From: Halopiger djelfimassiliensis
Lineage (GTDB): Archaea; Halobacteriota; Halobacteria; Halobacteriales; Natrialbaceae
DNA length: 64,000 bases
Direction of reading: 5' to 3'
Assembly (NCBI RefSeq): GCF_000455365.1
Contig: NZ_HG315686.1
Span: 1-64,000 of the forward strand
Shown: positions 7,637 through 21,919 of the stretch, in pieces
Layout of the letters: the number at the start of each line of letters is the position of its first letter
Position numbering within the stretch: the stretch's first letter is position 1
Made by a program: the position numbers and the translations under genes
Notes under the pieces: generated by a model
The model's input: the letters and a program-made list of their open reading frames with translations, nothing else
The model's database searches: none
What the model was told of the DNA's origin: nothing

Positions 7637-7722
7637 CCGTCGATCGAGATCGTGTTCGGACGGGACGGTGATAAAATACGGCTCCCGGGCGTGAATTTGC
7701 AGCGCCATCGTCACGTCCGCCG

Positions 7723-8700
7723 TTACTGATCACCGGATTCGAACGACCGCTCTCCCGAGTCGACGGACGGATCCGACCGCAACCGGTCGGTGTCCGCACC
7801 GTCGACGGCCATCCGTGCGACGCCGCTCGAGTCGTCGAAGACGTGATGGCGGCGGGGGTAGGCGAACTCGACGTCGATATCCACGAACCGTTCCCGGACC
7901 GCACCCAGAACCGCCGATCGTGACATGGCCTGTTTGAAGGGATGGTCGACCCAGAAGTACAACTCGAGGACGATGCCGTTGTCCCCGTACTCTTTGATGG
8001 CACAGACCGGGGCTGCGGCATAGCGTGCACTGCCGATTCGGATGTCCGGGCCGCCGGTGATGACGGGATCGACGCTCCGTGCCGCCCGTTCGGCGTGTCG
8101 GCGCGCGGCTTCGAGGTCACTCCCGTACGTGATCTCGAACTCGACGGAGAGTCGCGTCCGTTCGTCCTCCGCGGAGTAGTTGATGACGTCTCGGGTGTGG
8201 ATTTCGGAGTTCGGAACGACGATGAACGTGTTCTCGAGGGTGAAGATTTTGGTATATCGGATCGTGATGTCCTCGACGAACCCCCGGTGGCCTTCGTCGG
8301 TGATCTCGATCATATCACCGATCTCGTAGGGTCGGTCGGTGAGGACGAACACGCCGTTCACGAAACTGCTTACGAGCGGTGCGAGCACGACCGCCACGAC
8401 GGCCGAGATGACGGTCACCGAGAGGAGGATCTTCGTGTTGCCGACGCCGAGGATGTTGGCGACGGCGGCGAGCGTTATCAGCAAGACGGCAGCCCTGACG
8501 CCTCGCAGGACGGTTCGGGTGACGCTCGGGCGTTCGATCCGTCTGGCGACGGTCCGACCGGCGAGGCGAACGACGAGTTTCGAAAGATACCACCCGATTA
8601 CGAAGACCGCGACGGCGAGCGCGAGATCGATAAGCGAAGGAATCCGGGAGGAGACGACCTGATCGACGTCCGTGATCGTCTCCTGAAAAGCCCCGATCAT
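7723..8700 (-). CDS. Small-conductance mechanosensitive channel (MscS family)
   Basis: A 325-residue membrane channel that opens on membrane stretch and releases solutes after osmotic downshock. Three hydrophobic segments lie near residues 20-40, 60-80 and 85-115, the last being the pore helix. The MscS beta domain follows ([12 protein letters not shown], then [14 protein letters not shown] and the VPNS segment), then an alpha/beta region and an acidic tail. The family length (about 290) fits. The start at 8700 is chosen because the 53 residues that could precede it are cysteine- and histidine-rich and unlike the family. Confidence 0.92.
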
Positions 8701-8886
8701 GGCAACACACTCATGCCGGCAGTGGTTAAGGGTTCTGACCTGCTGTCCGTTCGGGACGACGATTACGACGGGAGAGTGTCCGTCCGCGCCGAACTGGGCG
8801 ATCGATCGAATAACAACCCGATTTCGAAAACAGGTGCTACTCGGTGCATAATAAATCATTTACCCGCCGGGATCGTACGGCCGTAT

Positions 8887-9951
8887 ATGGCACCAGACGA
8901 ACTTCGCTCGACCGTCGAGCGCGTCGGGGACCGATTCAACCTCGGCGAATACGAGATCGACGCCTACCTCACCGTTTTAGAGCAGGGCCAGCTTACCGCA
9001 AGCGAAATCGCGGATCGAACCGAGATCCCCCAACCCCGTGTCTACGACACCGTCCGTAGCCTCAGCGACCGCGGTCTGGTCGAACTTCGGGAATCCCGTC
9101 CGATGAAAGTCGTCGCCATCGATCCCGGGGAAGCGTTCGACGACGTCCAGAGCTCCCTAGAGCAGATGATCGACGAACTCGAGGCGCGGTACACGGCGCC
9201 GGCCCGGGATACGGAGGCCGTCTCGCTCGTCAAATCCCGGTCGACGATCCTGCGATACCTCGAGGAGGTCATCGACGCCGCGGAGTACGAACTCTCGTTG
9301 TCGTTGACGCCCGACCTGCTGACCCGGTTCGAGGACGAACTGAGCGCGGCCGTCGACGCCGGTGTCAGCGTCGACCTGATCGTGACGCCGGCGAGCGAGG
9401 CCCCCGATCCCGCGGAGTTCGACTACCTCGAAATCGCGACGACGGCCCGCGCTCGTCGCGGGATCACCACGCCGGTCGTTGCCGTCGCCGACGGCAACTA
9501 CTCGGTGTACGCGACACAGGACGCCCTGCGGGACGATCAGGACCGGTACGGCGTCATCTTCAACCGGTCCGCGCTTGGCTTTCTGGTGTCCGGGTTCTTC
9601 GGGACCGTCCTCTGGACGACCGCAGAACGGACGCTCGGCGAGGACGGTCAACCCCGCTCGTACCCGCGAAAGTACGCTTCGATCCGGCGGTGCGTGAAAG
9701 ACCTCATCGAGGCGGGCGGGGAGTTCTACGCCACGATCGAAGGGCGTGACGTCGAGGTCGGTGGGACACGCGTCGTTCGCGGCCGTATTCTCGACATCTC
9801 CTTCGAAGTCAGCGAGGAGGTCGCCAGCCTCACCATGGAGACCGAATCGGGCGAGGAGCTGACCGTCGGCGGTCGGGTCGCCGCACTGGAGGACATCGAG
9901 GCCCACGAGATCCACATCGGACGACACGAGCCGCCGGCCCTCGAGGACTAA
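8887..9951 (+). CDS. TrmB-family sugar-responsive transcription regulator
   Basis: A 354-residue regulator. The winged helix (about residues 15-75) contains [24 protein letters not shown], cut here only to note the recognition helix [10 protein letters not shown] short coiled coil (80-105) leads to the C-terminal TrmB sensor domain that binds a sugar. TrmB proteins control sugar uptake and glycolysis genes in archaea. It sits immediately upstream of a sugar ABC operon on the same strand, with a 137-base gap holding an AGTA-A-TACT palindrome, so local control of that operon is likely. ATG 8887 follows a TATA-like CCGTATATGG. Confidence 0.92.
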
Positions 9952-9987
9952 GCTGTATTTGCGCGCGAACGTCCGATCGCCGGACGA

Positions 9988-9996
9988 AGTAATACT
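9988..9996. promoter_or_regulatory. AGTAATACT palindrome, possible TrmB operator
   Basis: A nine-base palindrome (AGTA, one base, TACT) lies in the gap between the TrmB gene and the ABC operon, next to an inverted repeat GTCCG/CGGAC (9971-9985). The half-sites resemble the TACT/AGTA halves of the Halobacterium TrmB site, but the orientation and spacing differ. A possible TATA element, CGATTAAGG, follows near 10050. Confidence 0.3.
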
Positions 9997-10088
9997 CGAT
10001 TGTACCGGCACGGGATCCCGACTGTCCGTCGTAGTTACGTTCGTGCAAGCCAACCGATTAAGGCGCTGAATCGCGTGTGATTTCGCGG

Positions 10089-11552
10089 ATGGGAGAAGAG
10101 ACACCCCATCGTACTGGTGTGTCCCGTCGGTCGTTCGTGACGGCGTCCGCGTCGACGGCGGTCGGAGCAGTCGCGATCGCCGGCTGTGTCGGTCGCGGCC
10201 CGGGATCGAATACCGTCGTGATGACCGGTGCCACGGACTTCGAGGAGATCCTGCACACCGAGGCGGGGGAGCCGTCGGTACAGCAGGCGCTGTGGGATGC
10301 CGGCCTCGACGAAGAGATCAGAGTCGAGCTCCAGACGGTCGTCAGCGACTCGGTACAACGGATGCAAGAGGCCCAGTCGGCCCTGCAGGCCGGCCGCGCG
10401 CCGCCGGACATCCATATGATGGACACCGGCTGGACGATTCCCTTCATCCTCCGGGAGCAAACGACGAACCTGACCGAGGCGCTACCCGAAGGCGTCGTCG
10501 ACCGGATCGAATCCAACTATCTCGACGAGGCCCTCGAGACGGCAAAACACCCTGAAACGGGAGCGATACACGGAATCCCGCTCTTTCCGGATTTCGGAGT
10601 ACTGCTGTATCGACAGGATCTCATCGAAGAGGCCGGCTACGACACGAGTAGCTGGGGAACCGAGCCACCGTCCTGGGGGGAGTTCGCCGAGGCGGTGGCC
10701 GGAACGCGGTCGGAACACGGCCTCGATTTCGGCTTTACCACGCAAGCGGCAGCCTACGAGGGGCTCTCGTGTTGTACGTTCAACGAGGTCCTGTCGACGT
10801 GGGGCGGCAGTTACTTCGGCGGTACCGAGAACCTGTTTACGGCGGGTGACCGTCCCATCACCGTTACCGACGACTCGGCCCTCGATGCGATCCGTATGAT
10901 GCGGGCGTTCATCCACGGAAGCGACGACGAACACGCCTTGGACGGGTATCCGCAAATCTGCCCGTCGGCGATCGTCCAGTGGTCCGAAGAGGAGTCGCTC
11001 GGTCCCTTCGCGAACGGCGACGCGGTCGCCCACCGGAACTGGCCGTTTTCGATCGCCGAGACCGGCGACGACGAGACGTTCGGTGACGACCTCGGCGTGA
11101 CGACACAGCCCTTTGCGGTCCCCGAATCCGATACCGAATACGAGGGGGTCGGCGGAACCGCCGCCGCACTCGGCGGATGGAACCTCACGCTCAGCCCCTA
11201 CACCGACCGCAGGGACCAGGCGCTGCAGGTTCTCGAGGCGTTTACCCACGACGAGGTCATGCTCACGATCTTCGAACTGCAGGGGTTCCTTCCGCCGAAC
11301 CTCGAGCTGATCGAGGACGCCGATCCCGACGAGGTCGGGCCGGTGGCTCGCTACGTCGAGCAGATCCAGAGGGCGGGTGAGAACGCCGTCCCGCGGCCGG
11401 TAACGGACGTCTGGCCCGAACAGTCGGCGCTCATCTTTCAGGAGGTACACGCCGCCTACCGCGGGGCGAAAACACCGACGACAGCGATGAACGATCTGGC
11501 CGACCGCCTCGAACGAAGCGAATCGGAGGTCGCACAACAGCATGGCAACTGA
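10089..11552 (+). CDS. Sugar ABC transporter substrate-binding lipoprotein (family 1)
   Basis: A 487-residue extracellular binding protein. The Tat motif S-R-R-S-F-V (13-18) and lipobox I-A-G-C show Tat export and lipid anchoring, the normal haloarchaeal route. The rest has the family-1 (maltose/trehalose-type) layout, ending with GGTAAALGGWNLTLSP, a helix-rich C-terminal lobe and a W-P-E-Q segment. It probably captures a di- or oligosaccharide. A GTG at 10077 could be a leaderless start; ATG 10089 is preferred. Its last 11 bases overlap the first permease gene, so translation is coupled. Confidence 0.93.
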   Translation: MGEETPHRTGVSRRSFVTASASTAVGAVAIAGCVGRGPGSNTVVMTGATDFEEILHTEAGEPSVQQALWDAGLDEEIRVELQTVVSDSVQRMQEAQSALQAGRAPPDIHMMDTGWTIPFILREQTTNLTEALPEGVVDRIESNYLDEALETAKHPETGAIHGIPLFPDFGVLLYRQDLIEEAGYDTSSWGTEPPSWGEFAEAVAGTRSEHGLDFGFTTQAAAYEGLSCCTFNEVLSTWGGSYFGGTENLFTAGDRPITVTDDSALDAIRMMRAFIHGSDDEHALDGYPQICPSAIVQWSEEESLGPFANGDAVAHRNWPFSIAETGDDETFGDDLGVTTQPFAVPESDTEYEGVGGTAAALGGWNLTLSPYTDRRDQALQVLEAFTHDEVMLTIFELQGFLPPNLELIEDADPDEVGPVARYVEQIQRAGENAVPRPVTDVWPEQSALIFQEVHAAYRGAKTPTTAMNDLADRLERSESEVAQQHGN

Positions 11553-12549
11553 TACCGAAACCGGGCGCGACCGAACCGGCAACGCGGTCGTCAACTGGAT
11601 GGAGGGGTTGAGCGAGGCCGCTTACGCGTACCTGCTGTTGCTGCCGGCGTTTGCCCTGTTGACGCTGATCGCGTTCTACCCGTTGCTCAGAACGTTTCTC
11701 ACGTCGCTGCGCGAAGATCAAACCCGTGGAGCGGAACCGCTCGGGGGATTCGTTGGCATCGAAAACTACGTCGATATCCTCACGGGGAACGCGCGACTCG
11801 CGCGCCAGTTTCTTGACGTATCGGTGTCGGCCTCGTTCCCGTTCGTCGAATTCGGCGTCCCGATCTTTCAGCAAGCGCTGTTCGTGACGCTCGGGTTCGC
11901 TGTCATCAGCGTCTTCTTCGAGACGGTCATCGGGTTCGGACAGGCGTACGTGCTCGATCAGGACTTCCGAGGGCGGCGCTGGGTCCGCGTGGCGATTATC
12001 CTTCCGTGGGCCGTCCCGATCGTTATTCAGGGGATGATCTTCTTCCTGCTGTTTCAGCCCGAGGTCGGCTTCGGAAGCGATCTGATGCAGTGGCTGGGAA
12101 TCTTCGGGGCCAACCCGCTTGCCGACAGCCGTGACGCCTTCATCATCATCCTCGTCGCCGATATCTGGAAATCCTCGGCGTTCATGGCGCTGCTGATCCT
12201 CGCCGGACTCCAGAGCGTCGACCGAAGCCTGTACAACGTCGCACGCGTCGCAGGGGCGTCGCCGTGGCAACGGTTCAAGCTGATCACGCTGCCGCTTGTG
12301 ATGCCGGCACTGCTCGTCGCGATGTTGTTCCGGACGATGGACGCGATGCGCGTCTTCGGGTTGATCGAGTCGACCGCCGGCTGTACGACCGTTCCCTCGC
12401 TTACGTGTCTCGTCGTCGAGGCGATGTTCGGCGGCACCCGGATCTTCGCGACGGCCGCTGCCGTCGCGTTCGCGACCGCACTCGTGATCGGCCTGATCAT
12501 CTCGGTGTACGTGTTCTTCTTCCGCGACACCGAGGGAGGACTCTACTGA
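11542..12549 (+). CDS. Sugar ABC transporter permease (MalF type)
   Basis: A 335-residue inner-membrane subunit with six predicted membrane helices. The cytoplasmic EAA loop, which touches the ATPase, reads N-V-A-R-V-A-G-A-S-P-W-Q-R-F around residues 233-246. Between the first two helices it has an extracellular insertion of about 70 residues. It overlaps the binding-protein gene by 11 bases, and its TGA shares one base with the ATG of the next permease (ATGA arrangement), so the importer genes form one operon. It pairs with the next gene product to make the channel. Confidence 0.93.
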   Translation: MATDTETGRDRTGNAVVNWMEGLSEAAYAYLLLLPAFALLTLIAFYPLLRTFLTSLREDQTRGAEPLGGFVGIENYVDILTGNARLARQFLDVSVSASFPFVEFGVPIFQQALFVTLGFAVISVFFETVIGFGQAYVLDQDFRGRRWVRVAIILPWAVPIVIQGMIFFLLFQPEVGFGSDLMQWLGIFGANPLADSRDAFIIILVADIWKSSAFMALLILAGLQSVDRSLYNVARVAGASPWQRFKLITLPLVMPALLVAMLFRTMDAMRVFGLIESTAGCTTVPSLTCLVVEAMFGGTRIFATAAAVAFATALVIGLIISVYVFFFRDTEGGLY

Positions 12550-13625
12550 TGCACGACAGCGATCCCGACGATCGACACCCGAACCGCCAACGCGCACCCG
12601 GAGACGAGGGCTCGTCCCTCCCGGAACACTGGAACCGAACGCACCGACTGCCCGACGGCGGCCGATCGGCCGAACAGCCACGAAGCGGCGGACTGGCGGA
12701 CGACGAACGCGACGCCGAGCTGGATCGGGGACCGTTCCAGCGATGGGTCGCCGCCGCTATCTCCGATCCCGAACGCGCCTATCGGGCGATGTTCTACACC
12801 GCGACGATCTTCTTCCTCGTGACGACGCTGTTCCCGTTTTACTGGCTGCTCATGGTCGCCCTGACGCCGGAAGGACGACAGCAGGACATCATCCTCACGC
12901 CGAACGGGTTCAACCCGGGTGCGTTCGTCGAGGTCTTTCAGGTCCTTCCGTTTCACTGGTACATGTTCAACAGCTTCGTGATCGCGACGGTCTCGACGGC
13001 CGTTGTGCTGGTCATCGGCAGCCTCGCGGGCTATGCGTTCGGGCGACTCGAGTTCCCCGGCCGAACCCCGCTGATGTTGCTCGTGCTGGTGATCTCGTTT
13101 TTCCCGCCGGCCGCCTTCTTCATCCCGCTGAACGACCTGTTCAACACCCAGTTTTTCGCGCTCGAGCCGATCACCGGGGACGGAACGCTCTACAACACCC
13201 CGGGTGCGATGGTGTTGCCGCTGTCGGCGATTTTCATGCCGCTTGCGATCTTCATTCTGACGACCTTCTACGCACAGATCCCCGACGGACTCGAGGAAGC
13301 GGCCCGTGTCGAGGGAACGACCCGACTGGGCGCGCTGTTTCGGGTCATCATCCCGCTGTCGGCACCGGGCGTGGCGACTGCGGGTGTATTGACCTTCATC
13401 GCCGTCTACAACGAGTTTTTCTTCTCGTTTCTGATGACCGACGGCCAACCGGAAAACTGGGCCCCGATCCTCGAGGGAATCCTCGGCTATCAGGGCCAGT
13501 ACGAGGTGATGTATCACCTGATGGCCGCCTCGAGCATCATCGGCGTCATCCCGGTCGCGATCCTCGTGATCGTCGCACAGGAAAAGATCGTCAGCGGACT
13601 GACCGCAGGCGCACTCAAGGAGTAA
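12549..13625 (+). CDS. Sugar ABC transporter permease (MalG type)
   Basis: A 358-residue permease, the second half of the channel. It has an unusually long hydrophilic N-terminus (about 80 acidic and polar residues) before the first helix, then six helices. The EAA loop is E-E-A-A-R-V-E-G-T-T-R-L-G near residues 254-266, the best-conserved contact to the ATPase. Start ATG 12549 overlaps the stop of the preceding permease by one base; the open frame continues upstream only as shadow. Three bases separate its stop from the ATPase gene. Confidence 0.93.
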   Translation: MHDSDPDDRHPNRQRAPGDEGSSLPEHWNRTHRLPDGGRSAEQPRSGGLADDERDAELDRGPFQRWVAAAISDPERAYRAMFYTATIFFLVTTLFPFYWLLMVALTPEGRQQDIILTPNGFNPGAFVEVFQVLPFHWYMFNSFVIATVSTAVVLVIGSLAGYAFGRLEFPGRTPLMLLVLVISFFPPAAFFIPLNDLFNTQFFALEPITGDGTLYNTPGAMVLPLSAIFMPLAIFILTTFYAQIPDGLEEAARVEGTTRLGALFRVIIPLSAPGVATAGVLTFIAVYNEFFFSFLMTDGQPENWAPILEGILGYQGQYEVMYHLMAASSIIGVIPVAILVIVAQEKIVSGLTAGALKE

Positions 13626-13628
13626 CCT

Positions 13629-14816
13629 ATGGCACGAGTCAGACTCGAAAACGTCACGAAACGCTACGAAGACGTCATTGCAGTCGACGACATCAGCCTC
13701 GACATCGAGGACGGCGAGTTCGTCACCTTCGTCGGACCGTCGGGGTGTGGGAAATCCACGACGATGGAGGCGGTCGCGGGACTTACCCAGCCGACGGACG
13801 GCCGAGTGTTCATCGGCGACGACGATGTTACGACCCTCGCACCCAAGGACCGCGGGGTCGCGATGGTCTTCCAGAACATCGCGTTGTTCCCGCACATGGA
13901 CGTCTTCGACAACATCTCCTTTGGCCTTCGGCTTCGGAAATACGACGACGAGGAGATCAGCCGGCGCGTCGAGCAGGCGGCCGACATCGTCCAACTCGAG
14001 GGCATGCTCGATCGGATGCCGGACGAGATGTCCGGCGGACAACGACAGCGGGTCGCGATCGCTCGCGCGATCGTTCGCAACCCGGACGTCTTCCTGATGG
14101 ACGAGCCCCTCGCGAACCTGGACGCGAAGTTACGGGTCCACATGCGGACGGAACTGCAGCGACTCCACCGGGAGCTAGAGACGACGATCATCTACGTCAC
14201 GCACGATCAGGCCGAAGCGATGACGATGTCCGATCGAATCGCCGTCCTCAACGAGGGGGAACTCCAGCAGATCGCGCCGCCGTTGACCTGCTACAACGAA
14301 CCGGCAAACCTGTTCGTTGCGGGCTTTATCGGTTCTCCTTCGATGAACTTCGTCGACGGCGAACTGGTCGAGGAAGGAATACGGACGGACAACTTTACGG
14401 TCGAGTTCGACCACGGTATCGTTCCGGAAGCGGCCATCGGCGACGCCGTGACCCTCGGCGTCAGACCGGAGGACGTGCATCTCTCGGAGTACGCCGAAAG
14501 TCTCGCGAGTCCGACCGCACCGATCGATGCCCGAACGGACGTCTTGGAACCGATGGGCGATGAGGTCTTCGTCTACCTGTTGCTCGCCGAGGAGGAAACC
14601 CGATCGATGGAACAGGACCCCGCATCGTCGCCACACCAGTTGCTGATGAGCGTCACACCCGATACGGAGATCGGTGAAAACCAGCCCGTCGACGTCGTAT
14701 TAGATCGATCGAAGATCCACCTCTTCGATACGGCAACTGGCGACGCGCTGGCCCACGGAATCACCGGCCCCTCCGGACGAGAACCCGGGACGACTGCGAC
14801 CGAAGCGGATAGTTAA
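13629..14816 (+). CDS. Sugar ABC transporter ATPase (MalK/UgpC type)
   Basis: A 395-residue ATPase that powers the sugar importer. Walker A is GPSGCGKST (36-44), the Q-loop is VFQNIALFPHM, the signature is [15 protein letters not shown], and Walker B is VFLMDEPLANLD followed by the switch H in VTHDQAEA. After about residue 240 come TOBE-type regulatory strands (GVRPEDVHLSE). A polar insert in the C-terminal domain (near residues 320-335) and an acidic tail are haloarchaeal additions. It is the last importer gene; 186 bases separate it from the oxidoreductase gene. Confidence 0.95.
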   Translation: MARVRLENVTKRYEDVIAVDDISLDIEDGEFVTFVGPSGCGKSTTMEAVAGLTQPTDGRVFIGDDDVTTLAPKDRGVAMVFQNIALFPHMDVFDNISFGLRLRKYDDEEISRRVEQAADIVQLEGMLDRMPDEMSGGQRQRVAIARAIVRNPDVFLMDEPLANLDAKLRVHMRTELQRLHRELETTIIYVTHDQAEAMTMSDRIAVLNEGELQQIAPPLTCYNEPANLFVAGFIGSPSMNFVDGELVEEGIRTDNFTVEFDHGIVPEAAIGDAVTLGVRPEDVHLSEYAESLASPTAPIDARTDVLEPMGDEVFVYLLLAEEETRSMEQDPASSPHQLLMSVTPDTEIGENQPVDVVLDRSKIHLFDTATGDALAHGITGPSGREPGTTATEADS

Positions 14817-17670: not shown

Positions 17671-18555
17671 TCAGTCGAGTCGGCGATCGATGGAACGCCG
17701 GGTCGAATCGAGAGCGCCGCCGACGGTGTAGTTGGCTCCGACGTGGACGCTGATCAGGGCAAGTCCCGTCCCGGCGACGACGTCGGAGAACCAATGAATC
17801 CCGAGGTACATCGTCGAGACGACGACACCGACGGCGAAAACGCCGGAAACCGGGACCCACAGTGGATACTTGTCACGGGTGAGCCACGCGAGAAAGAACA
17901 CCGTCATCGAGAGTGACGTGTGCAACGACGGGAAGACGTTCGTGTTCTGGTTTACCTGTGTCGTAAGCATCCCGGCTCGCGGAAACACGTCGTAGAGGAG
18001 CCCGTCGAACAACAGCGGGTCGAAGTTCCGCGGCCCGTAGGAGATAAAGAGGACGTAACAGACGAGCCCGAGCGCGTAGTTCACCGTAAACGCAAGCAGC
18101 AACGACTCCAGGTCGTCCATCTCATCGAGTGCGAAGTACGCGATGATCGGAAACAGAAGGAGAAACGCGTACCCGTAGATGTAGACGAAGACGAACACCG
18201 ACGTGAGTTCGGGTGACTGAAACGACTGGAGCACGGCGACCGGATTCGCTGGAAAGAGCGTCCGCTCGAGTTCGAATAGGTGGGGCGTGATATTGTTCCC
18301 GAGGATCCGCCGTTCGATGCGGACGACGATATCCCCCGTCGACCACCGGAGTGTCAACACGAGAGCGAGCGCTACCAGCGGGAGGAAACACATCTCGAGT
18401 CGCCAGCGAAACTCCCGTAACGCGGCCGTGATTCGCCGCGGACCGACGATCACGAGCGTCGCCGTCACGAGCATCGTCGCGACGACGAGAGCGAGTTTCA
18501 GGACGATACCAGCGAAGGCCATACGGGTTACCGTCGGTGTACTCCTGCGAGACAT
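17671..18555 (-). CDS. PAP2-superfamily membrane phosphatase or phosphotransferase
   Basis: A 294-residue integral membrane protein with about six helices. The PAP2 active site is present as F-P-S-L-H-T-S (with SLH in place of SGH) and Y-L-G-I-H-W-F-S-D, whose His and Asp act in phosphoryl transfer. The PSLH variant is typical of the inositol-phosphotransferase-like (AUR1/Ipt1) branch, so it may act on phospholipid headgroups or polyprenyl phosphates rather than free phosphatidic acid. Start 18555 gives a short basic leader before the first helix; ATG 18522 is an alternative. Confidence 0.85.
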   Translation of the reverse strand: MSRRSTPTVTRMAFAGIVLKLALVVATMLVTATLVIVGPRRITAALREFRWRLEMCFLPLVALALVLTLRWSTGDIVVRIERRILGNNITPHLFELERTLFPANPVAVLQSFQSPELTSVFVFVYIYGYAFLLLFPIIAYFALDEMDDLESLLLAFTVNYALGLVCYVLFISYGPRNFDPLLFDGLLYDVFPRAGMLTTQVNQNTNVFPSLHTSLSMTVFFLAWLTRDKYPLWVPVSGVFAVGVVVSTMYLGIHWFSDVVAGTGLALISVHVGANYTVGGALDSTRRSIDRRLD

Positions 18556-18645
18556 TAATAGCGACCGGTATCGGTGTCGCTCGCGGGCGGTCCGATGATC
18601 GGCGACACCGGAGGCCCAAGCGATCAAACACATCGCAGGCAGCCG

Positions 18646-20406
18646 TCAGTGAAGCAACGCATCCTCGTCGTACCGGTACCCGGCCTCTTCGAACAGGGTC
18701 CGAACTCGCTCGGTATCGATCTCGCCGTCGGATCCCGGAAACGTCGCGATACGGGAGTCGACCGCTCGCTCCCACTGGTCGTCACGGACGCCGACGAGCG
18801 AGTTTCGTGTCGCCGCCGGGTCCGCGAACCCACCGAAGAACTCGGAGACGACGTGTTCACGATCGATCAACCGCGAGAGGATCCGCCGGAAATGGGGGTT
18901 TCCGAGGACGGGATGATGAAGGTTGTAGCCGATCATGTAAAACGAGCTCGTCGGGCCGGTGATCGTCGAGGTTCCCGGTACTTCGCGGATTCGGTCGGTC
19001 ATCTCCGGCGGGACGTCGCTGCCGGTAATGTCGATCTCACCGTCCCGAAGCGCGTCGATCATCGCCCCCGCGTTCGGATCGACCCGGTATCTGAGCCCCG
19101 AGAACTGTGAAAACCCGTCGAGGATATCCGGTCTCTCGGCGACCCTGTCGCGGAAGACGTGGTCGTCGAACGGCTCGAGGACGAGTTCGGTAGCCGTGGC
19201 GTCGCCGAACCGGAAGAGCCCGGAGCCGATCGGCGCTTCGTTGTTGGTCACGAGCGCTTCCGTCCGGCGCTCGGCGACGACCGCCGACCGTGGCTCCCAG
19301 ACGTGTTCGGGGAGAAGGGGGATCGAAAGGACGCGTGCCGCGGCCGGACGAGCGGTGCTTCCGAACGAGAGCTGAACGGTTCGCTCGTCGAGAACGGCGA
19401 CGTTCTCGACGAGCGTCTGTCGACCCCGGTACCGCGGCGCGGGAACCCCGGCTTCGAGTTCGCCCAGCGACGTATCCCCCAAAAACCGGAGGGTGAAGGC
19501 GACGTCGTCCGCATCGAGCGAGTGGCCGTCGTGCCACGCGACGTCCGGGCGGAGCGTGATCGTCGCCCGTAGTCGGCCCGAGTCCTCCCACTCGATGTCC
19601 TCGGCCAGCCACGGAACGTACTCGTCGGCACCGCCACGGTACTCGTCGGTCCGGCGCGCGAGTGGATCGTACAGCAGTTCAAGCACGCCGTGGATTCTGT
19701 TACGATCGACCACGAGCGGATTCAGCCGCTCGGTCAACCCCTCCCCGTAGACGCCGACCGTGAGCGGTTCGTCGCGCGATCCATCGGCCGGTTCCCTCGA
19801 GAGGAGATCGATGTACTCGAGCGGTCGCCGCGGCGGCCTCGGCGCGTCGAGGGATCGCCTGACACCACCGATCTGGTGGGGGTACGCGACGACGGTATAC
19901 GGGGCCGTTTCCTCGAGGAAATCGAAGAGTTCGGAGAGGTGATCGCGACGCTCGCTTCCGGTGGACGTTCGCTGGGACTGAAGGTAGTTATCGGCCGTGA
20001 CGTTGGTGAAGTGAAACGGGTTTTGCCACCCTCGTTCGTTGACGAACTGCGAGTGGAGGAGTCCGCGAATCGCGTCGTACTCATCGAACCCGGGGTGTCT
20101 GAGAACGAAGACGTCGTAGTCGCCCTCGATGAGGACGTCCCGGTACAGTTCCGGCTCCGGCATCGGCTCGTGAGTCGTATCGATCCCCGCTTCCCGGAAG
20201 TTCTCCCGGAGCCGGCTCATGATCTTCGCGGCGATCGCGTCGTCGTCCGTTGGAACCGTCTTGATAGTGAGTTCGATCCGGTCGGGACCGGAGTTTTCGG
20301 CCCGCGACCAGAGTCGCTCCGAACAGCCGGCCAGCATACTGGCACCGAGACCGCTTGCACCCGCCAGCAACCGACGCCGTGTCATCGACGAAGCGACATC
20401 TTCCAT
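18646..20406 (-). CDS. Circularly permuted family-5 solute-binding lipoprotein
   Basis: A 586-residue Tat lipoprotein (R10-R12, lipobox L-A-G-C with C28) of the oligopeptide/nickel-type SBP_bac_5 family. The order of its parts is unusual. Residues about 43-186 look like the family's normal C-terminal segment (AGID strand, GDYDVF, the D-Y-L and P-Y-T-V-V-A-Y end). The usual N-terminal lobe starts only near 215 (LTVGVYGE, LYDPLAR, then ITLRPDVAWHDG). The chain ends at EEAGYRYDED, where normal members would continue into the segment here placed first. It stands alone, without permease or ATPase genes. The ligand is unknown. Confidence 0.85.
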   Translation of the reverse strand: MEDVASSMTRRRLLAGASGLGASMLAGCSERLWSRAENSGPDRIELTIKTVPTDDDAIAAKIMSRLRENFREAGIDTTHEPMPEPELYRDVLIEGDYDVFVLRHPGFDEYDAIRGLLHSQFVNERGWQNPFHFTNVTADNYLQSQRTSTGSERRDHLSELFDFLEETAPYTVVAYPHQIGGVRRSLDAPRPPRRPLEYIDLLSREPADGSRDEPLTVGVYGEGLTERLNPLVVDRNRIHGVLELLYDPLARRTDEYRGGADEYVPWLAEDIEWEDSGRLRATITLRPDVAWHDGHSLDADDVAFTLRFLGDTSLGELEAGVPAPRYRGRQTLVENVAVLDERTVQLSFGSTARPAAARVLSIPLLPEHVWEPRSAVVAERRTEALVTNNEAPIGSGLFRFGDATATELVLEPFDDHVFRDRVAERPDILDGFSQFSGLRYRVDPNAGAMIDALRDGEIDITGSDVPPEMTDRIREVPGTSTITGPTSSFYMIGYNLHHPVLGNPHFRRILSRLIDREHVVSEFFGGFADPAATRNSLVGVRDDQWERAVDSRIATFPGSDGEIDTERVRTLFEEAGYRYDEDALLH

Positions 20407-20633: not shown

Positions 20634-20765
20634 ATGTCGAGCATAACAATACACGGAGAGGGTGGTGGTGAAGGCGTGGTACCCGTTCCGACTCCGGCCG
20701 AACGGATCGGCGTCTGCGGTTCGGTCCCGTTCGCATCGGGGGACGGCCACGAGAGAGAACCATGA
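20634..20765 (+). CDS. Possible 43-residue leader ORF overlapping the cetZ start
   Basis: An ATG at 20634 opens 43 codons whose TGA overlaps the cetZ start codon (ATGA at 20762-20765), the usual haloarchaeal sign of translational coupling. The product is glycine- and proline-rich with one cysteine and has no recognised domain. Composition does not prove coding, and cetZ itself may have an untranslated leader of about 160 bases. I keep it as a candidate only. Confidence 0.25.
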   Translation: MSSITIHGEGGGEGVVPVPTPAERIGVCGSVPFASGDGHEREP

Positions 20766-21919
20766 AGCTCGCACTCATCGGTTTCGGTCAGGCAGGTGGA
20801 AAGATCGTCGACGAGTTCCTGGCGTACGACGACGCGATCGACGGCGGCTTCGTCGAGGCGGCGGTCGCAGTCAACTCCGCGACGACGGATCTCAAAGGCC
20901 TCGAGAACGTCGCACGGAAGGATCGCGTTCTCGTCGGGCAGGCGCGCGTCAAAGGCCACGGCGTCGGTGCCGACAACGAACTCGGCGCACAGGTCACCGA
21001 GGCGGACATCGACGAGATACAGGGAGCGATCGACCGGATTCCGGTCCACGAAATCGACGCGTTCCTCGTCGTCGCCGGCATGGGCGGCGGTACCGGGTCC
21101 GGCGGCGCACCCGTCCTCGCGAAACACCTCAAGCGGATCTATACCCAACCCGTCTACGGGCTCGGGATCCTCCCGGCGACCGACGAGGGCGGGATCTATA
21201 CGCTCAACGCGGCCCGCTCGTTCCAGACGTTCGTCCGGGAAGTCGACAACCTCCTCGTCTTCGACAACGACGTCTGGCGCAGCGCCGGCGAGTCCGTCGC
21301 CGACGGCTACGGGCGGATCAATCGCGAAATCGTCGAACGGTTCGGGCTGTTGTTCGCCGCCGGCGAGGTACAGGCGGGGGATCACGTCGCCGAAAGCGTC
21401 GTCGACTCCTCGGAGATCATCAACACCCTCTGTGACGGCGTCTCGACGATCGGATACGCGCGGGAAGGCGTCGAGACCAACGACGGGCTGTTGTCGACGC
21501 TCCGAGATACCGAGGAGTTCGACGAAGGCGCGGCGACGAACCGAATGACGAGTCTCGTTCGGAAGGCCGCACTCGGGCGACTGACGCTCCCGTGTGACGT
21601 CTCGAGCGCCAATCGCGGGCTCGTCGTCGCGACCGGACCACCCGAACACCTAAACCGGAAAGGGGTCGAACGGGGCCGCCAGTGGCTCGAGGACGAGACC
21701 GGCAGCATGGAGATCCGCGGCGGCGATCACCCCCGGCCGGGACGCGAGGAGGTCGGCGCGATCGTGCTTCTCTCGGGCGTGACGGACGTTCCGCGGGTCG
21801 ATCAACTCCAGCAGGTCGCGATCGAGGCCCAGGAGACGACCGAGGCAGTACAGGCGAACGCCGAGGAGGAGTTTACGTCGCTTATGGATACCGGCGGAGA
21901 GATCGACGCGCTGTTTTGA
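20762..21919 (+). CDS. cetZ: CetZ tubulin-like cytoskeletal GTPase
   Basis: A 385-residue tubulin-superfamily GTPase that polymerises near the membrane and controls haloarchaeal cell shape and motility. It starts MKLALIGFGQAGGKI, the family N-terminus, and has the tubulin signature GGGTGSG at 108-114. The central DNDVWRSAGES and GYGRINREI segments correspond to the nucleotide-contact loops. It lacks the divisome-binding C-terminal tail of FtsZ1/FtsZ2, ending instead in an acidic E-I-D-A-L-F. It appears monocistronic; a GGCGG/CCGCC hairpin at 21941-21958 may end the transcript. Which CetZ group it belongs to needs a tree. Confidence 0.94.
   Translation: MKLALIGFGQAGGKIVDEFLAYDDAIDGGFVEAAVAVNSATTDLKGLENVARKDRVLVGQARVKGHGVGADNELGAQVTEADIDEIQGAIDRIPVHEIDAFLVVAGMGGGTGSGGAPVLAKHLKRIYTQPVYGLGILPATDEGGIYTLNAARSFQTFVREVDNLLVFDNDVWRSAGESVADGYGRINREIVERFGLLFAAGEVQAGDHVAESVVDSSEIINTLCDGVSTIGYAREGVETNDGLLSTLRDTEEFDEGAATNRMTSLVRKAALGRLTLPCDVSSANRGLVVATGPPEHLNRKGVERGRQWLEDETGSMEIRGGDHPRPGREEVGAIVLLSGVTDVPRVDQLQQVAIEAQETTEAVQANAEEEFTSLMDTGGEIDALF

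Follow-up and report, generated by a model that had tools for sequence, protein, structure and literature searches.

The window, a stretch of 64,000 nucleotides from Halopiger djelfimassiliensis, contains a gene for a family-5 solute-binding protein (SBP) with an N-terminal lipid anchor, directly followed by a gene for a PAP2_3 membrane protein (Table 1). On the other side of the SBP gene lies a divergent CetZ tubulin-like gene (20762-21919). A CUT1-type sugar ABC operon on the forward strand (10077-14816) encodes a family-1/8 SBP, two permeases and a MalK-like ATPase and is followed by Gfo/Idh-type and isomerase-like genes. An earlier reading, made from the letters of the sequence only (the sequence-only reading), had stated that the vicinity lacks permease and ATPase genes; this was mistaken, as the sugar operon lies about 4-8 kb away, with its own SBP. 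It contains the only nearby permeases in the window, and because it already has a family-1/8 SBP it was rejected as the cognate transporter. The CetZ, MptE, DHPS and Cdc6 neighbours, conserved in close relatives only, were rejected as partners.

Table 1. Features of the SBP gene and of the adjoining PAP2_3 gene, in window coordinates.
Feature	Position	Strand	Basis
Whole gene, circularly permuted SBP_bac_5 Tat lipoprotein, 586 aa	18646..20406	-	ORF, Pfam, split profile
Tat signal (R10 R11) and lipobox ending in G27-C28, residues 1-28	20323..20406	-	Alignment of relatives
Moved piece, normally the C-terminal part of SBP5s, residues ~43-204	19795..20280	-	Pfam, split-profile and PDB matches
Linker from old C-terminus to old N-terminus, residues ~205-213	19768..19794	-	Sequence and alignment
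N-lobe and middle domain, residues ~214-580	18667..19767	-	Pfam, split-profile and PDB matches
PAP2_3 (Aur1/LpxE-like) membrane protein, 320 aa, 12 bp downstream of the SBP gene	17671..18633	-	Pfam, 1.2e-17
PAP2 motif C2 histidine H238 (FPSLH)	17920..17922	-	Invariant, 59/59
PAP2 motif C3, H280 to D284	17782..17796	-	Invariant, 59/59

The SBP belongs to the SBP_bac_5 family (PF00496), with a score of 145.9 bits against a cut-off of 32.4. Residues 262-580 match positions 1-281 of the 368 in the Pfam profile, in two stretches (E=2.3e-42), while the N-terminal segment, searched alone, gives a weak match of residues 46-104 to profile positions 288-346 (E=0.032). A profile of 33 conventional SBP5s from haloarchaea was divided at the presumed cut and run against all open reading frames in the set. 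In the window SBP the C-piece comes first, at residues 51-187 (E=6e-7), and the N-piece comes after it (E=6e-40), ending at residue 580. Over the whole set, the C-piece comes first in 112 open reading frames (some loci being present twice) and the order is normal in 37. Sequence matches to the PDB place the two pieces in the same way: positions 230-546 of the whole-family profile correspond to chain positions 35-319 of entry 1xoc, and the profile of the moved piece alone to 373-499 of 1xoc and 368-516 of 5u4o. BLASTP comparison of permuted with conventional proteins yields two segments in swapped order for loci L144, L155 and L196; for the window SBP, only the larger segment is found.

The AF2 model of the SBP (pLDDT 89.9, pTM 0.87) has SBP5-type proteins as its best Foldseek matches in the PDB, mostly with 390-420 aligned columns covering part of the chain and a target TM of ~0.5, as would be expected if one piece only aligns in order. 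No profile or structure search returned a full-length match in normal order. The domain order is reversed, which makes the protein a permuted variant of the SBP_bac_5 family. The sequence-only reading had proposed just such a swap, and had expected the family profile to be split in reversed order; this is how it matched, and no clean N-to-C profile match was found. With the Pfam stretches, the split profile and the PDB matches in agreement, the window SBP is confirmed, at the level of sequence comparison, as a naturally circularly permuted family-5 solute-binding protein. A truncated gene, a frameshift or an assembly error can be rejected, as the reading frame is uninterrupted and matching relatives occur in 58 of 77 genera; most of the relatives listed are colinear with the window SBP over nearly the whole length.

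The new C-terminus is the EEAGYRYD loop, the point where normal members of the family go on. The PDB positions (about 360-373), combined with the known domain layout of OppA, would put the new termini in a loop just ahead of the final portion of domain III. The lipid anchor would therefore be attached to a different lobe, in line with the proposal of the sequence-only reading that the permutation moves it. The N-terminus has the characteristics of an archaeal Tat lipoprotein, with R10, R11, G27 and C28 invariant in all 68 aligned relatives, and the signal and lipobox should tether the protein on the outer face of the membrane. Other conserved elements are the GWQNPF motif, His292 and Asp301.

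The swapped order is widely shared: relatives of the window SBP are present in 191 of the 292 genomes sampled from the class, distributed over the 58 genera mentioned above. More distant permuted SBP5s make up a wider set (most of L140-L159, plus L198-L204 and L207). In Alphaproteobacteria (Nitratireductor, Neorhizobium, Ketogulonicigenium and Roseomonas), SBP5s with the same cut are found with standard operons. Among the matches listed from other classes of the phylum, nearly all span the N-lobe and middle part only, like conventional proteins. One of them, the SBP5 of a non-haloarchaeal archaeon (L196, 5821-7563), is permuted; permease and ATPase genes are linked to it, and its new C-terminus carries a PGF-CTERM anchor. 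A match from Cetobacterium (L211), considered as a permuted protein, is conventional.

A search for duplicated intermediates with two whole C-pieces found none and uncovered a second cut site. Two haloarchaeal SBP5s, L138 (1396-3246) and L127 (961-2817), are cut about 100 positions deeper in the C-piece, with the ~75-90 residues that normally end the chain placed shortly after the lipobox. The alignment of L138 with its conventional relative L099, which belongs to the same genome as the window, falls into two blocks of exchanged order, one of 483 columns (53%) and one of 77 (61%). L139 (1426-3078) and L137 (925-2658) possibly represent a third cut site, near position 117 of the C-piece. A single origin, modelled as one split that separates all permuted from all conventional SBP5s, was rejected with a tree of 57 proteins (AU p=0.005, a value to be read with the long branches of this tree in mind), in which L196 and L142/L204 nest among conventional SBP5s. 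With the same caveat, it is likely that SBP5s were permuted more than once.

Outside the clade of the window SBP, a permease gene is located directly downstream in 20 of the permuted loci, and in many of them a full permease/permease/ATPase/ATPase series comes after an SBP5 with the same cut. The permutation itself is therefore compatible with coupling to a permease. A failure of the window SBP to dock with a standard permease, as suggested by the sequence-only reading, would consequently be no effect of the permutation; what holds for the clade is the lack of a linked Opp permease, with none within 6 kb in 61 of 62 loci.

This clade, linked to PAP2, forms one separate branch (support 100), and the single locus with an Opp-type permease within 6 kb is its exception to the absence of a linked PF00528 permease and ATPase. 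The sequence-only reading was right about the missing standard permease and overlooked the gene that fills its place in the operon. In 74 of 80 non-redundant haloarchaeal loci, the SBP gene is directly followed by a PAP2_3 gene of the same strand. This linkage spans ten family-level groups, and the SBP stop and PAP2 start often overlap by 1-4 bp. Conventional SBP5 loci with enough flanking sequence have a PAP2 neighbour in 0 of 32 cases. At the cut-offs used, 190 of the 292 genomes have both genes, one has the SBP only (G131), none has PAP2 only and 101 have neither; these numbers come from two genome lists compared by eye, and the genomes are non-independent samples. Several genera (e.g., g19, g22, g26, g29, g30 and g31) mix both states, with SBP and PAP2 always together. 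In G178, G033 and G136 the SBP gene does not adjoin a PAP2 gene, yet a PAP2 match is present elsewhere in the genome. In the genome of the window, the three best PAP2_3 genes adjoin exactly the three SBP5s whose match stops at profile position ~283-286, i.e., the permuted ones. Gene order and distribution thus support well the view that the clade has departed from a linked ABC transporter and that SBP and PAP2_3 would form a two-gene module, although neither linkage nor shared distribution need mean physical interaction.

The partner is a PAP2_3 enzyme by its Pfam match and by its catalytic His, His and Asp residues; its GPRN motif is also invariant (59 of 59 members). Its AF2 model (pLDDT 91.1) has Aur1 and LpxE as best Foldseek matches, the similarity to Aur1 being at superfamily level (TM 0.5-0.65, with high rmsd). 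From the conserved residues and the model, we infer an active enzyme. The active site of the partner may face outward, judging by what is known of the PAP2 family and by a weak charge pattern, a modest excess of Lys and Arg in the 252-258 loop.

We consider it about as probable as not (around 0.5) that the lipid-anchored, permuted SBP serves an outward-facing lipid phosphatase or phosphotransferase, either by binding a ligand for it or by regulating it, through a presumed contact, substrate and mechanism. The active site of PAP2 would open to the outer face, where the anchored SBP would be located. The SBP might capture a phosphorylated or amphiphilic ligand, such as a lipid headgroup, a lipid-linked sugar or a phosphate ester, and either pass it to PAP2 or, once bound to it, switch PAP2, which may then remove or transfer a phosphate-containing group. 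Of 39 diverse loci, 8 (e.g., L062, 8240-11542) have arylsulfotransferase-like and PMT_2-like genes close to the permuted SBP; these would fit extracytoplasmic glycan/sugar or sulfate/sulfolipid chemistry, and may be a hint of it. In a broader and somewhat more tentative picture, SBP5s would have been permuted repeatedly, at two or three cut sites and in both archaea and bacteria, and one lineage would have become the ligand-binding subunit of an Aur1-like PAP2 protein, a new extracytoplasmic module for lipid or lipid-linked phosphotransfer that roughly two of every three sampled haloarchaeal species possess.

The SBP could also be part of an importer, feeding an Opp-type permease encoded elsewhere, with PAP2 dephosphorylating the substrate before its capture. 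The genome of the window has several Opp permease pairs, and the ordinary Opp operons that contain SBP5s with the same cut are consistent with this. However, the six other SBP5s of this genome all have permeases of their own, within about 4 kb, and the PAP2-linked proteins form their own well-supported branch, with the near-absence of Opp permeases described above. We consider import rather unlikely.

A slightly less probable option is a regulator that neither transports nor delivers a ligand, similar to LpqW, an SBP5-like lipoprotein of mycobacteria with a channelling role in lipoglycan synthesis at the membrane (PMC3229680). LpqW (2grv) is among the best PDB matches of the moved-piece profile (E=3.9e-5), and both proteins would work with a membrane lipid enzyme, not with a transporter. 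The match is short and at family level, its position (residues 407-471 of 621) shows LpqW to be in normal order, and the partner enzymes differ. We know of no PAP2 partner for LpqW. Moreover, the conservation of GWQNPF, His292 and Asp301 would equally fit a retained binding function. Mere hitch-hiking of two independently acting proteins in one operon, for which the six loci without an adjacent PAP2 gene (L055, L058, L060, L062, L088 and one copy in L090) might be cited, is highly improbable in view of the linkage across ten family-level groups, the frequent start/stop overlap, the intact pairs in tandem arrays (L089 and L094) and the shared presence or absence of both genes even where they are unlinked.

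The SBP and its PAP2 partner have partial parallels in known systems. By profile, and by fold over the part of the chain that aligns, the SBP is of the same family as OppA, DppA, AppA and NikA, from which it differs by the swapped order of its pieces and, as a clade, in having neither permease nor ATPase genes linked to it. A precedent for a naturally permuted solute-binding lipoprotein of ABC type is the glucose-binding Tp0684 (MglB-2) of Treponema pallidum, for which the name "Type Ic / cluster Bc" was proposed; binding is retained, and this type of permutation is spread over several bacteria (PMC4990184). Unlike the window SBP, MglB-2 belongs to the cluster B sugar-binding class, has another cut site and lacks a PAP2 partner. 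In the window SBP, Pfam found SBP_bac_5 as the only domain and no cluster B sugar-binding sequence, placing it outside cluster Bc. The PAP2 protein resembles yeast Aur1 (inositol phosphorylceramide synthase) and LpxE in its catalytic His/His/Asp residues and in its Foldseek match; here it pairs with an SBP-type lipoprotein, whereas Aur1 pairs with Kei1. In the open literature (subscription papers being outside the scope), our searches turned up neither a permuted SBP_bac_5 protein nor a pairing of an SBP with PAP2.

The SBP_bac_5 transporter family is very large. Domain databases rate its permuted members as simple partial matches, so the rearrangement is easily overlooked. With permuted SBPs in ordinary ABC operons, nature provides a test of how much docking depends on chain order and anchor position. 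The clade of the window, in turn, links a binding protein which appears to have lost its transporter to a specific partner that can be tested. The SBP-PAP2 pair may also provide a way into the outer-leaflet lipid chemistry of haloarchaea.

On the same contig as the window, L094 contains a tandem SBP-PAP2-SBP-PAP2 array (7687-12216). A 398-residue protein without a Pfam match (L067, 4728-5924) recurs in 9 of the 39 diverse loci.
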